A stretch of 64,000 nucleotides of DNA from the NCBI GenBank assembly GCA_947450025.1, contig CANFTW010000005.1, positions 62,001-126,000 of the forward strand, read 5' to 3'. The stretch is from Bacteroidota bacterium. GTDB lineage: Bacteria; Bacteroidota; Bacteroidia; B-17B0; Aurantibacillaceae. A program made the translations under genes and the position numbers. Of the stretch, positions 27,402-32,937 are shown in pieces. The number at the start of each line of letters is the position of its first letter. Position 1 is the stretch's first letter. A model generated the notes under the pieces. That model saw only the letters and a program-made list of their open reading frames with translations, searched no databases and was not told where the DNA came from.

Positions 27402-27434
27402 TAAAAACGCACATAAAATTTATGTGCGTTTTTT
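27402..27434 (+). terminator. Intrinsic terminator after the universal stress gene
   Basis: AAAACGCACATA pairs with TATGTGCGTTTT and is followed by TTATTTTTT. It separates the Usp gene from the riboswitch transcript. Confidence 0.88.
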
Positions 27435-27464
27435 ATTTTTTAATAGTTACATTTGTTTCGCAAT

Positions 27465-27624
27465 TTGGTTTTTAGGTATTTATATATCAAAAATTAAAAG
27501 GGAATCATGTGAAATTCATGAACAGTGCCCGCTGCTGTAAGTCTTAAATACTGTTTTTAAAAATGCCACTGTCAAAATAAGATGGGAAGGCTTAAAAACT
27601 GAGACGAGTCAGAAGACCTGCCAA
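27465..27624 (+). ncRNA. Cobalamin riboswitch aptamer
   Basis: All conserved parts are readable in order: P1/P2 sides TTGG...AGGT (27465-27477) pairing with ACCTGCCAA; AAAAGGGAATCATGTGAAATT with the stem-loop CATG/CATG; CAGTGCCCGCTGCTGTAAG core; GCCACTG; GATGGGAAGG; and the B12 box AGTCAGAAGACCTGCC at 27608-27622. It senses adenosyl- or related cobalamin in the nascent transcript of the B12 operon that follows. Confidence 0.95.
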
Positions 27625-27662
27625 TATGCATTTTGAAGCTTTCGGGGAAACAAAAGCTAACA

Positions 27663-27696
27663 AAAAACAGGATGTTTAGGCAACATGCTGTTTTTC
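27663..27696 (+). terminator. Riboswitch-linked intrinsic terminator (attenuator)
   Basis: AAAAACAG-ATGTT pairs with AACAT-CTGTTTTT, with one internal G-G mismatch, around TAGGC, then CTATTT. It lies between the aptamer and the receptor ATG at 27732, so cobalamin binding probably stops transcription there. The stretch in between has an AGCTTT...AAAGCT stem that may take part in switching. Confidence 0.8.
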
Positions 27697-27731
27697 TATT
27701 TGTACCCTCAAAAACTATATTGTTTAATTAA

Positions 27732-29735
27732 ATGGATTGTTTAAAAACATATACCTCCTCGTTTTCATACTTTTTAGTGTGTTTCTTAGTATATGTATTC
27801 AATATCTCAAACATCAATGCTCAACAAAAAGACACCAGTATTCATCAATTAAATGAAGTAACTATTTCTGAAAATAAACAACAGATGATTGAATCATCAA
27901 AAAAAATAACAAAATTTGATAGTCTAACATTAACTAATTATAACACTAGTACATTAGCTGATTTACTTTCAAATCAATCAACCATTCACATTAACACCTA
28001 CGGAAACGGAAACATTTCAACAACAAGTATGAGGGGCGGAAATGCTAATCATACTGCCTTATTGTGGAACGGATTGAACATTCAAAATGCGATGTTAGGT
28101 CAAGCTGATTTAAGCATTATTCCAGTTTTATTTTTTAACGACGTTAGTATAGAATATGGAGGAGGCAGTGCCATGTGGGGAAGTGGCGCCATTGGAGGCA
28201 GTATTCACCTTAAAAATAAATTAGCATTTAATCAAGGATTTAAAACTAAATTACAAGTAAGCAAAGGGAGTTTTGGAACTATAAAATTAAATTCAGGGAT
28301 ACTGCTTAGTTATAATAAAATAGTTTCTAATACTAAACTATATATTAATCAATCGGAAAACAACTATGCATATAAAGATACTGCTGATAAAGAATATCCT
28401 AATAAAACAGTAAAACATGCCAATTATACTTCAAAAGGATTATTGGAAGAGTTATCATTTTTGATCCATCCAAATCAAAAAATAAACATAAGAGCTTGGT
28501 ATCAAAACACCAATCGTCATTTACCATCCTATTCATCCATCAATAATAATAAAAATCAAGAAGATGAAAACTTAAAATTAAATGCTGATTGGAACTTCAC
28601 AAAAAGAAATTTAAATTCAACTATAAGGTTAGGTTATTTTAATGATAAATTAAATTTTTCGGATAGTTTAAAAGACATTTTTAGCAAAAGTTCAGTTAAA
28701 ACATTCATTACAGAAAATGATAACATCTATCAATTAAAAAATCATACATTAAATTTTGGAATAAACTACACACAATATAATTCAACATTAACAGAAAAAG
28801 AACCTTCAATATATTCAAACATTAGCGCTAATCAGAGCTTCCAATCTACTTATCATCATCTTTATAAATTCTCACTATTTGCAGCGTATAAAATAATCTG
28901 TTTTAATTCAAAAATTCATTATAATTTATCCATTCGAAAAGAATTCACCTCACAAACCTATATACCAATTACAGGAAACACTGGCATTCAATATCAATTA
29001 ACAAAACATCTTATTACTAAGCTAAACTTCAATAAATCATACAGACAACCTACCCTTAATGATCTATATTGGAATCCAGGCGGAAATCCAAATTTAAAAC
29101 CAGAAGATGGCTACGAAATGGAAGGCGGGTTAGAATATCGTTACACAAAAAATCATTTTGGGTTATCTATGGAAGCTACTTACTTTAATAGACATACTAA
29201 AAACTGGATTATATGGCTACCAAATAAAGATAATATATGGAGCCCGAAAAACATAGCAGAAGTATACAGCAGAGGGACGGAAACTAAAACTGAACTAAGT
29301 TATCTAAATGAGAATTTATTAATAAAAATGATATTGAGTACATCCTATATTCTCTCCACTTATCAAAAAACGAATGGCGAAAATGATAATTCTGTTGGCA
29401 GACAATTAATATTTACGCCACGATATAATGGTCAAGCCAGTTTACTAATTAAATACAAACATTTTAATTTTCTTTTCAATTCCAATTATACAGGATATCG
29501 TTTCACAGCAACAGATAACAGCAGTTGGCTTAACCCTTACTATATTTCAAATTTTAAATGTTCATACTCATATTCAATAAATACTGTAAACACGGAATTA
29601 TTTTGTAACATTAACAACCTCTTTAACAAAACCTATGTGATTATTTCAAATAACCCAATGCCTTTAAGGAATTATGAAATAGGAATTTCCTTAACTTACC
29701 AAAAAACAAAAAAAGAAAAACTACCTACTAACTAA
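27732..29735 (+). CDS. btuB: TonB-dependent cobalamin receptor (BtuB-like)
   Basis: 667 residues. An outer-membrane 22-strand barrel that imports vitamin B12 with energy from TonB. It has a signal peptide (residues 1-30) and then a short leader with QLNEVTISE as a possible TonB box. The plug domain has STSMRGGNANHTALLWNGLNIQNAMLG and VSIEYGGGSAMWGSGAIGGSIHL. The barrel has NFNKSYRQPTLNDLYWNPGGNPNLKPE, typical of BtuB and CirA-like receptors. There is no CarboxypepD-like N-terminal domain, so it is a simple receptor rather than SusC-type. Cobalamin specificity rests on the riboswitch and on the BtuG-like gene downstream. Confidence 0.92.
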   Translation: MDCLKTYTSSFSYFLVCFLVYVFNISNINAQQKDTSIHQLNEVTISENKQQMIESSKKITKFDSLTLTNYNTSTLADLLSNQSTIHINTYGNGNISTTSMRGGNANHTALLWNGLNIQNAMLGQADLSIIPVLFFNDVSIEYGGGSAMWGSGAIGGSIHLKNKLAFNQGFKTKLQVSKGSFGTIKLNSGILLSYNKIVSNTKLYINQSENNYAYKDTADKEYPNKTVKHANYTSKGLLEELSFLIHPNQKINIRAWYQNTNRHLPSYSSINNNKNQEDENLKLNADWNFTKRNLNSTIRLGYFNDKLNFSDSLKDIFSKSSVKTFITENDNIYQLKNHTLNFGINYTQYNSTLTEKEPSIYSNISANQSFQSTYHHLYKFSLFAAYKIICFNSKIHYNLSIRKEFTSQTYIPITGNTGIQYQLTKHLITKLNFNKSYRQPTLNDLYWNPGGNPNLKPEDGYEMEGGLEYRYTKNHFGLSMEATYFNRHTKNWIIWLPNKDNIWSPKNIAEVYSRGTETKTELSYLNENLLIKMILSTSYILSTYQKTNGENDNSVGRQLIFTPRYNGQASLLIKYKHFNFLFNSNYTGYRFTATDNSSWLNPYYISNFKCSYSYSINTVNTELFCNINNLFNKTYVIISNNPMPLRNYEIGISLTYQKTKKEKLPTN

Positions 29736-29744
29736 TATACGACT

Positions 29745-30752
29745 ATGAAAAAAACAATCATCAAATTAACAATCCTTCTAGGGTTAACTATAAATAACAA
29801 TTTACAATCTCAAACCATATCGTTTGATACATTTACATTATCTACAAACTCTTATTATAAAGATACTACAGGAGCAGATTTTTCATCAAACGGCTTAACA
29901 TTTAGATATAATTGGAATTCATCTTGGGGAGGATATTGGGAATCAGGATCAGCTTATACCAATGTTGCAGATACAGTTAACGGAACATATACAAATTTAT
30001 ACGGATGCATACCAGGCTCTGCATTTGCTGGTAATAACTATGCTACTATTCAAAGTGGTGCTATTATAGCCATGTCAAATACAACAACTGCTGTTAGTGG
30101 ATTTTATTTGACAAATACCACTTATGCTTGGAAAGAAATAAAAAACGGAGGCTTTGGTAGAAAATTTGGTGACACCACAGGAACAGGATCAGGTACAAGT
30201 ATCGCTCAAGGGCAATATCCTGATTGGTTTAAAGTTTTAGTGAAGGGGTACCGTGGAGGTAATTTACTGAGTGATAGTATAGAGTTTTATTTAGCAGATT
30301 ACAGACCAGCTGGCGTAATAGACGATTATGTAGTAAAGAATTGGCAATTTGTAAATTGTATATCATTGGGCCAAGTTGACAGTTTAACTTTTGAAATGAA
30401 ATCCAGCGACAATAATGCCTTTGGCATGAAAACACCAGCGTTTTTTTCAATTGATCATTTAACTATTCAAAGTACTGTTGGTATTAAAGAATTAAATAAT
30501 ATTTCAAACATTTATATTTATCCTAATCCAACCAAACAAACTTTATTTTTAAATTACGAATCAAAAAATCCTCACGAATTAAACATTCATATAACTGATA
30601 TTAGCGGAAAAGAAATTCAAAACTATACATCATTAAGTACTATTGGAAACAACCAGATCAAATTAGAAACAGAAAATTATGAAGCTGGAATTTATTTTAT
30701 TGAATTAAACGACGGAACAATTTCTAAGACAATTAAATTCATCAAATTATAA
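29745..30752 (+). CDS. DUF4465 surface protein with T9SS type A sorting domain
   Basis: 335 residues, 9 bases after the receptor stop. Signal peptide 1-22 (NLQSQ). The middle ~220 residues (FDTFTLSTNSYYKDTTG, GLTFRYNWNSSWGGYWESG, YATIQSG, GFYLTNTTYAWKEIKNG, DWFKVLVKGYRGG, FYLADYRPAG, FGMKTPAFFSIDHL) match the DUF4465 beta-sandwich family that accompanies B12 uptake genes in Bacteroidota. The last ~75 residues (IYIYPNPTKQTLFLNY, ITDISGKEIQ, EAGIYFIEL) are a type A sorting domain, so it would be displayed on the cell surface by T9SS. A direct B12-binding role is plausible but unproven. Confidence 0.85.
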   Translation: MKKTIIKLTILLGLTINNNLQSQTISFDTFTLSTNSYYKDTTGADFSSNGLTFRYNWNSSWGGYWESGSAYTNVADTVNGTYTNLYGCIPGSAFAGNNYATIQSGAIIAMSNTTTAVSGFYLTNTTYAWKEIKNGGFGRKFGDTTGTGSGTSIAQGQYPDWFKVLVKGYRGGNLLSDSIEFYLADYRPAGVIDDYVVKNWQFVNCISLGQVDSLTFEMKSSDNNAFGMKTPAFFSIDHLTIQSTVGIKELNNISNIYIYPNPTKQTLFLNYESKNPHELNIHITDISGKEIQNYTSLSTIGNNQIKLETENYEAGIYFIELNDGTISKTIKFIKL

Positions 30753-30759
30753 GTACAAC

Positions 30760-31791
30760 GTGAAATTTTATCTTTTCATATTTAGCTCATTTATATTTAG
30801 CTCTTGCGTTAAGGATAAACCGCAAGAGCCTATAAAAACAACAGTATCTGTTAATTCAGATTCAAAGGTATTAGTAATTAATGAAGGTAATTTTGGATGG
30901 GGAGTAGGCAGTATTTCATTATACGACCCATCATCTAATGCTATTATTGAAGACTATTATAAACAACAAAACAATAATTCAACTCTAGGTAATGTATGTC
31001 AGAGTATAACCAAATACAACAACAACTATTATATTGTGATGAATAACTCCAATAAAATAGTTGTTGTAAATACTTCTGACTTTGTAAAAAAAGCCACCAT
31101 AAATGGATTTAATTCTCCACGCTACATTTTGCCAATTACCTATAATAAAGCCTATGTAAGTGATTTATACGCCAACTCCATTCAAATTGTGGATTTAAAT
31201 ACAAATACAATATCTGGTTCTATTCCATCCGCAAAATCAACAGAACAAATGGTGTCATTATATAACAAAGCATTTATAACATGTTCGAATTCTGATTACT
31301 GTTATGTCATTAATACCACTTCCGATATCATAACCGATAGCATTAATGTAGGGAGGGGGAATTCTAGTATTTGTATTGATAATCAATCCAAAATATGGAT
31401 ACTAAGTACAGGTAATAGTAGCCAAAACAACACCGGAAAATTATGCAGAGTTGATCCAATCACTTTACAAATAGAGCTTAGTTTAAATTTTTTGAATAGC
31501 CAAAGTCCAAATAAATTATGCATTAACAAAACAAGAGATACCTTATATTATTTAAATAATGGTGTGTTTCAAATGCCCATATCTTCCATAACTCTTCCAT
31601 CAACACCGCTCATAAATCAAGGGTCAAAAGTATATTATGGCTTAGGTATTAATCCAAAAGACTATCATATTTATGTTGCTGATGCCATTGATTACGTTCA
31701 AAAATCGAAAATAGAAATATACAATCCTAATGGAAGTTTTATAACTAAATTTAACGCTGGCATTATTTCAAATGGATTCATGTTTGAATAG
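30760..31791 (+). CDS. BtuG-like surface beta-propeller lipoprotein
   Basis: 343 residues starting at GTG 30760, 7 bases after the DUF4465 stop. The signal MKFYLFIFSSFIFSSC gives lipidation at C16, followed by VKDKPQEP. The mature part is a YncE/DUF5074-type beta-propeller: repeated blades with KVLVINEGNFGWGVGSISLYD, NNNYYIVMNNSNKIVVVNTSDF, NKAYVSDLYANSIQIVDLNTNT and YVADAIDYVQKSKIEIYNPNG. BtuG in Bacteroides is such a seven-bladed lipoprotein that binds B12 very tightly above BtuB. Position in a B12-riboswitch operon right after the receptor supports the same job here. No btuF-C-D genes lie nearby. Confidence 0.85.
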   Translation: MKFYLFIFSSFIFSSCVKDKPQEPIKTTVSVNSDSKVLVINEGNFGWGVGSISLYDPSSNAIIEDYYKQQNNNSTLGNVCQSITKYNNNYYIVMNNSNKIVVVNTSDFVKKATINGFNSPRYILPITYNKAYVSDLYANSIQIVDLNTNTISGSIPSAKSTEQMVSLYNKAFITCSNSDYCYVINTTSDIITDSINVGRGNSSICIDNQSKIWILSTGNSSQNNTGKLCRVDPITLQIELSLNFLNSQSPNKLCINKTRDTLYYLNNGVFQMPISSITLPSTPLINQGSKVYYGLGINPKDYHIYVADAIDYVQKSKIEIYNPNGSFITKFNAGIISNGFMFE

Positions 31792-31815: not shown

Positions 31816-32937
31816 GTGCAAAGTCATTTACATATTATTTCTTTTGATATACCCTACCCTGCTAATTATGGTGGTGCAATAGATGTGTTTCATAAAATAA
31901 GATGTTTACATGCACAGGGTATTAAAGTTATTTTACATTGTTTTGAATATGGTGACAGAAAAGATTCTCCTGAATTAGAAAAATTGTGTGAGAAGGTTTA
32001 TTATTACAAACGCAACAACTCTTTTCTCAATCAATTATCTTTTTTGCCCTTTAATGTAAAATCACGCATTAACTCTGAGTTAAAACAAAATTTATTAAAA
32101 GATAATTACCCTATTTTATTTGAGGTATTACATACGTGTTATTTATTGAAAGACCCTGATTTTAAAAACCGAAAAAAACTATTTAGACATAGTAATATTG
32201 AACATGATTATTTTTTAGAATTAGCGAAGGGAGAAAAATCATTTCTAAAAAAGTTATATTTAAAAGTAGAAGCTTTTAAATTAAAACGATTTGAGAAACA
32301 AATTACTTATGCAGATTGTATTTTATCAGTCTCAGAAGCGGATTTAAACTACTTTAAAAAAACATATCCAAATACTCTAAGCGTTTATTTACCAAGCTTT
32401 CATCAATTTGATAAATTACAATGCAAAACAGGTCAAGGCGATTACATTTTATATCATGGTAATTTATCCATTTCCGAAAATTACAATGCTGCTTTATGGT
32501 TAATCAAAAATGTATTTTCTAAAATTAAACAAACAGTAGTAATTGCTGGGTTAAATCCTCCATCTCATTTAGTGGAAGAAATAAAAAAATATTCACACAT
32601 AACTCTAAAACAAAATTGTTCAGAACAAGACATGCAATCTTTAATTGAAGATGCTCAAATACACTGTTTATATACCGAACAAGCTACTGGATTGAAATTA
32701 AAATTATTAAACGTATTATTCTCTGGACGTTTTGTGATTGCAAACAACAGTATGCTTGCTGGTACTTCTTTGAAAGATGCTTGTTTCATTGCTAATAAGC
32801 CTCAACAATATATTGAGGCTATTAATTATTTTTTTGATAAAGAATTTATTGAAAATGAAATTGAAAACAGAAAAAGAGTTGTCGAACCAATGAATAATCA
32901 AGAGAAAACGAAAAAATTAATAGAACTACTTTCCTAA
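31816..32937 (+). CDS. Glycosyltransferase (GT4-like, GT-B fold)
   Basis: 373 residues from GTG. The N-terminal half begins HLHIISFDIPYPANYGGAIDVFHKIRCL, the acceptor-binding opening of GT-B enzymes with a 'GG' loop. The C-terminal half has YILYHGNLSISENYNAALWLI, VVIAGLNPP, and ATGLKLKLLNVLFSGRFVIAN, which occupies the place of the nucleotide-sugar site (an E-x7-E motif is not clear). Cytoplasmic or membrane-associated, probably working on envelope glycans. It does not belong to the B12 operon, because it has its own -7 box. The last 12 bases overlap the convergent ArsC-like gene. Confidence 0.82.
   Translation: MQSHLHIISFDIPYPANYGGAIDVFHKIRCLHAQGIKVILHCFEYGDRKDSPELEKLCEKVYYYKRNNSFLNQLSFLPFNVKSRINSELKQNLLKDNYPILFEVLHTCYLLKDPDFKNRKKLFRHSNIEHDYFLELAKGEKSFLKKLYLKVEAFKLKRFEKQITYADCILSVSEADLNYFKKTYPNTLSVYLPSFHQFDKLQCKTGQGDYILYHGNLSISENYNAALWLIKNVFSKIKQTVVIAGLNPPSHLVEEIKKYSHITLKQNCSEQDMQSLIEDAQIHCLYTEQATGLKLKLLNVLFSGRFVIANNSMLAGTSLKDACFIANKPQQYIEAINYFFDKEFIENEIENRKRVVEPMNNQEKTKKLIELLS

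Follow-up and report, generated by a model that had tools for sequence, protein, structure and literature searches.

What is a cargo protein of the type IX secretion system (T9SS) doing between a vitamin B12 receptor and its surface partner? To our knowledge, surface competition for B12 in Bacteroidota has been described almost solely in gut Bacteroides, where the binders are lipoproteins. The locus considered here lies in a 64,000-nucleotide stretch of DNA from a Bacteroidota bacterium of the family Aurantibacillaceae (contig CANFTW010000005.1, positions 62,001 to 126,000; hereafter the window), and it places a gene for a T9SS-tailed DUF4465 protein in an operon with btuB and a btuG-like gene behind a cobalamin riboswitch.

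The riboswitch aptamer (RF00174) occupies 27449–27639 on the forward strand and scores 106.2 bits with the covariance model (cmscan E 1.4e-25; gathering score 31.5); the original prediction had started the locus at 27465, 16 bases inside it. Three co-directional genes follow on the same strand, namely btuB (27732–29735), the DUF4465 gene (29745–30752), and the btuG-like gene (30760–31791), with intergenic gaps of 9 and 7 bases, so that the gene calls and the riboswitch score bear out the predicted arrangement. The terminator predicted after the aptamer is supported in part: folding of 27640–27725 gives a forward-strand hairpin leading into a U run at 27663–27695 (-19.6 kcal/mol, z -2.46), tentatively the riboswitch terminator or expression platform, but a consensus terminator scan returned a sole match at 27403–27433. 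This match, on the forward strand, ends the universal stress protein gene that lies upstream and sets the operon apart from it. A glycosyltransferase gene begins at 31816, 24 bases past the operon end. Considered as a whole, the locus is best explained as a B12-repressed corrinoid uptake operon of the order btuB–btuJ(T9SS)–btuG, a reading that we hold with high confidence, and by itself it is a further member of a known locus type.

The outer two genes have close counterparts of known structure. BtuB (667 aa) carries the plug (PF07715) and barrel (PF00593) of a TonB-dependent B12 receptor, and among solved structures it is closest to BtuB of B. theta, 8p97/8p98 (E 1e-66) and 8bmx (E 5e-65). 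It also matches TIGR01779, which we take to be a model of the enterobacterial BtuB type, at E 2e-26 and 92.5 bits, far below the equivalog cut-off of 599.7; by sequence comparison, the Bacteroides BtuB proteins are closer to it than that enterobacterial type. The BtuG-like product (343 aa, GTG start) is a putative surface lipoprotein with a DUF5074 beta-propeller (PF16819, 4e-21) and a lipobox FSSC containing Cys16, judged by eye, and it aligns over nearly its full length with BtuG2 (8bmx_D, E 8e-53). BtuB and BtuG form an importer in B. theta (PMC10404256), and the BtuB2-BtuG2 complexes of Bacteroides (8bmx, 8p97) are the nearest solved relatives of the window pair. They are likewise encoded together, whereas the window pair is interleaved with a T9SS cargo gene.

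The interleaved gene encodes a BtuJ-like protein of 335 aa with a signal peptide (judged by eye), a DUF4465 domain at about residues 24–244 (PF14717, 8e-35, 121 bits against a cut-off of 25), and a tail at 258–334 that matches PF18962 (2e-13) and the type A sorting model TIGR04183 (48.4 bits against a cut-off of 23). The original prediction regarded DUF4465 as having no settled role, a view overtaken by papers of 2025–2026 that identify DUF4465 as BtuJ (PMC12751083, PMC13398666). Both BtuJ1 and BtuJ2 have a very high affinity for cobalamin, and each was crystallised in its B12-bound form (PMC12751083); DUF4465-B12 crystal structures include 9FCT, 9I2L, and 9HMU (PMC12751083, PMC13398666), and B12 binding was demonstrated for eight divergent members (PMC13398666). 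BtuJ1 is also the nearest solved structure to the window protein (E 5e-17), and the structure prediction that had been suggested for the domain yields a model (mean pLDDT 75) that aligns with B12-bound BtuJ1 (9qpm) at Z 24.4 over 204 aa with an rmsd of 2.0. In all probability the protein binds B12 and is exported by T9SS, as had been proposed. Lipidation of BtuG and a type A tail on the DUF4465 protein appear side by side around one BtuB, again as foreseen.

DUF4465 proteins with a T9SS tail had been recorded before: among 824 members an earlier survey counted 229 with the T9SS-type sorting domain IPR026444, besides 275 lipoproteins and 88 with IPR013424 (PMC12751083). The 229 share the architecture of the window protein and are reported there by number; neither that paper nor any other that our searches found describes their operon context, T9SS dependence, or a BtuH-like partner. 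BtuJ1 and BtuJ2 of B. theta (DUF4465, IPR027828) share with the window protein the domain, the fold, the type of btu riboswitch operon, and most contact residues. They differ in that B. theta lipidates where the window protein has a T9SS tail, and in that the window btuJ gene sits between btuB and btuG.

Is the linkage a peculiarity of one genome? We surveyed the window's GTDB family, the one family of its order among the genomes covered (87 genomes, 80 of them with DUF4465), mapping neighbours at each locus and detecting riboswitches with a profile built from 20 Rfam-confirmed copies. DUF4465-T9SS genes lying mostly outside B12 loci would have spoken against the original prediction, and the survey gives the opposite picture, since 74 of 83 loci (84 genes) adjoin BtuB and a cobalamin riboswitch precedes 70 of the 73 with readable upstream sequence. 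The T9SS tail is present on 81 of the 84 genes, several loci stopping at contig edges. Duplications also occur: one riboswitch operon holds a tandem pair of DUF4465 genes (L126:5833-7970), and tandem domains occur within single proteins at L201:5675-7399, L205:2902-4683, and L243:3656-5290, the first of which bears a T9SS tail.

The binding pocket departs from BtuJ1 at one position that the original prediction had passed over. In our alignment, the BtuJ1 contacts W78, Y97, Y146, and T242 are kept as W61, Y82, Y127, and T230, while Y245 becomes Phe233 and N241 becomes Lys229. The HI-loop motif NTPxY accordingly reads KTPAF in the window protein, with T and P retained (KTPAFF, 30429–30446). The HI-loop tyrosine (Y245 in BtuJ1) is described as critical and 97% retained in DUF4465 (PMC13398666), a retention that fails in this clade, because 63 of 80 readable family members have Phe and 17 have Tyr. 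Phenylalanine would keep the ring and lose the hydrogen bond to a corrin side chain, and affinity or cobamide preference may differ. One could go further and suppose that the protein has drifted from B12 to another corrinoid or ligand, with the Phe, prevalent across the family, and the Lys as marks of changed specificity. We judge this quite improbable: linkage to the cobalamin riboswitch, BtuB, and BtuG is strict, the remaining contact residues and the fold are preserved, and Phe could still line the pocket. What the window protein lacks is a hallmark given in the literature; it still fits the definition of the domain, and we continue to regard it as a DUF4465 member that presumably binds B12.

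The host genome contains exactly one other cobalamin riboswitch, on another contig, and it too had escaped the original prediction, as had the gene that it precedes. The riboswitch and gene together span L024:4047-5250 (C7:156046-157249); the riboswitch lies 41 bases upstream of a lone gene (L024:4267-5250) whose product of 327 aa combines a signal peptide and a T9SS tail with an N-terminal domain (about residues 23–243) to which no Pfam or NCBIfam domain name could be assigned. Another 2.2 kb along, L024:7410-8210 encodes a BtuF-like periplasmic-binding protein in which no signal peptide is obvious. Elsewhere the genome encodes enzymes with B12-binding domains and one FecCD permease.

To place this product, which we call BtuH-like, we compared the fold of a 60%-identical relative (predicted model, mean pLDDT 90). 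The best match of its N-terminal domain is B12-bound BtuH2 (7biz; Z 12.3, 157 aa, rmsd 3.1 A, 18% identity), over the B12-domain residues 318–593, followed by the BtuG1 H-domain (8blw, Z 10.7), the next unrelated row standing at Z 9.4. A broad profile of the family finds 8blw at E 6e-7 and 7biz at E 7e-4, and a domain-only profile finds them at E 2e-5 and 3e-3. One narrow profile from close relatives reaches 7biz at E 0.11, below significance, another gives no Btu match, and phmmer with the protein alone returns T9SS tails and noise; the BtuH link accordingly rests on the fold and the broad profile. The best 50 Foldseek matches listed contain beta-glucuronidases and T9SS tails and not 7biz, which surfaced in a second structural comparison. 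In the profile alignment, the invariant Asn of the family's FENxF motif pairs with the Asn of GNAF in 7biz, which would be Asn399 if the construct carries two extra N-terminal residues. BtuH2 contacts B12 through Asn399, Gln333, His476, Tyr510, Trp511, and Trp577. We consider it likely, on predicted fold and profile evidence, that the product is a T9SS-tailed BtuH-type B12 binder.

BtuH2 has been described as a lipoprotein with no known structural homologues (PMC8941943). Compared with BtuH2 and the BtuG1 H-domain of B. theta (7biz, 8blw), whose B12-binding fold its predicted fold matches, the BtuH-like family has no Ig/PKD or propeller part and no lipidation; it has a T9SS tail instead, and in many cases its gene stands alone, preceded by a riboswitch of its own. 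Our search of open-access papers for T9SS with cobalamin or BtuH found none describing such a system, and this second putative surface protein is apparently undescribed. The BtuH-like domain also matches the NCBIfam LIC_13355 family lipoprotein weakly (24 of 34 members of sequence set A1, best E 2e-4), by sequence possibly a BtuH-like protein outside Bacteroidota.

Relatives of the BtuH-like protein, at 55–77% identity, occur in 79 of the 87 family genomes. The 80 family genes comprise 38 in the riboswitch-gene arrangement, 23 inside a riboswitch-BtuB-DUF4465-X-BtuG operon or parts thereof, one at a contig edge, and 18 that are unlinked, having neither a riboswitch, which was sought and not found before them, nor B12 neighbours; these 18 count against a B12 role for the whole family. 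A riboswitch precedes 57 of the 75 with readable upstream sequence, and 79 of 80 carry a T9SS tail. At several loci, including L164, L165, L166, L169, and L175, the BtuH-like gene has neighbours that look CrcB-like and YhhQ-like by eye, and it has no cobalamin riboswitch. A wider scan found at least 455 relatives across Bacteroidota, including cultured Flavobacterium, Mariniflexile, and Aequorivita. For the best 80 of these at least 455, which partly overlap the family census, 68 loci have a cobalamin riboswitch or BtuB/BtuG alongside, and a BtuB- or BtuG-like gene, in some cases by a weak match, adjoins 19 of 21 loci from more distant genomes. Loci L210, L229, and L232 show the order riboswitch, btuB, btuG, btuH-like. 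In one protein (L222:5946-7610) the two families are fused, in the order signal peptide, DUF4465, BtuH-like domain, T9SS tail, and the gene is flanked by BtuB and BtuG in a locus that a cobalamin riboswitch precedes. Four BtuH-like reading frames have an in-frame Cys-rich CWC stretch before the signal peptide (L123:5740-6951, L174:5740-7032, L180:5710-6945, and L183:5734-6909) and a fifth (L287:1177-2211) has an in-frame DUF5522 there; such a cytosolic-looking domain before an exported protein may be genuinely fused to it, or it may belong to a preceding gene whose frame simply continues into the next.

The window DUF4465 protein combines a signal peptide and a TIGR04183 tail with a host genome that encodes SprA (2425 bits), as expected of type A T9SS cargo. 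That the riboswitch might accompany T9SS genes by chance was considered and is rejected because a cobalamin riboswitch was found at none of eight other T9SS loci in this genome. The same result weighs against the idea that the tail is incidental, borne by a periplasmic protein or by an ordinary surface protein whose gene strayed into this operon, as might happen in a genome with 117 T9SS tails. With the tail kept on nearly every family gene of both kinds (81/84 for DUF4465 and 79/80 for BtuH-like), we find this scarcely credible. We sampled ten Bacteroidota genomes that contain a DUF4465 match; SprA is encoded in eight and absent from the other two. The two tail-less DUF4465 proteins in our alignment (L003 and L012) have a Cys after the signal peptide, and both come from a single SprA-less genome. 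Tiny as the sample is, this pairing agrees with the lipoproteins BtuJ and BtuH of Bacteroides; gut Bacteroides, as far as we know, are without T9SS.

Our observations cover the riboswitches, the order and domains of the genes, the predicted folds, the tails, the T9SS genes, and conservation; for homologues, published work has demonstrated that DUF4465 and BtuH bind B12 and that BtuB and BtuG form a complex. For the window DUF4465 protein and the BtuH-like protein, we infer B12 binding, export, surface location, and hand-over. At low B12, the riboswitch would permit transcription of the operon, and BtuG, as a surface lipoprotein, would cap BtuB and feed B12 in. The DUF4465 protein, directed by its C-terminal tail, would exit via the type IX translocon from the periplasm, stay on the surface or be shed, bind cobalamin with its jelly-roll loops, and pass it to BtuG/BtuB. 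The second riboswitch would yield a further T9SS cargo, the BtuH-domain protein, with the same task; the counterparts of these two binders in gut Bacteroides are lipoproteins. Our best reading is that T9SS is the export route of both accessory B12 binders, BtuJ and BtuH-like, in those Bacteroidota that have it and that gut Bacteroides lipidate them.

Whether the exported proteins stay on the cell bears on how they would work. Type A tails mostly lead to attachment, which tells against both proteins being released as diffusible, hemophore-like binders that return B12 to BtuG/BtuB. Some T9SS cargo is nevertheless released instead of anchored, and the stand-alone BtuH-like gene is not bound to a transporter operon. 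BtuJ of B. theta, moreover, acts on vesicles away from the cell (PMC12751083). On balance, we think release of this kind unlikely. More tentatively, and as a speculation that we would not yet favour, the whole accessory B12-capture arm, BtuJ together with the unnamed BtuH-type family, might be T9SS-exported across T9SS-bearing Bacteroidota, sometimes as a fused two-site protein and in part perhaps released as a diffusible carrier, with T9SS loss in gut Bacteroides answered by lipid anchors.

The interpretation first offered for this locus is largely pre-empted by the 2025–2026 papers, and the novelty lies in the system with a putatively T9SS-exported BtuH-like partner. Our analysis proposes a likely function for a widespread family of T9SS-tailed proteins that no Pfam domain covers, and it draws attention to a naturally occurring form of the DUF4465 pocket in which Phe replaces Tyr. 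The same B12 binders would appear as T9SS cargo in a group abundant outside the gut, and the role of T9SS in B12 uptake becomes a testable question in tractable Flavobacterium.
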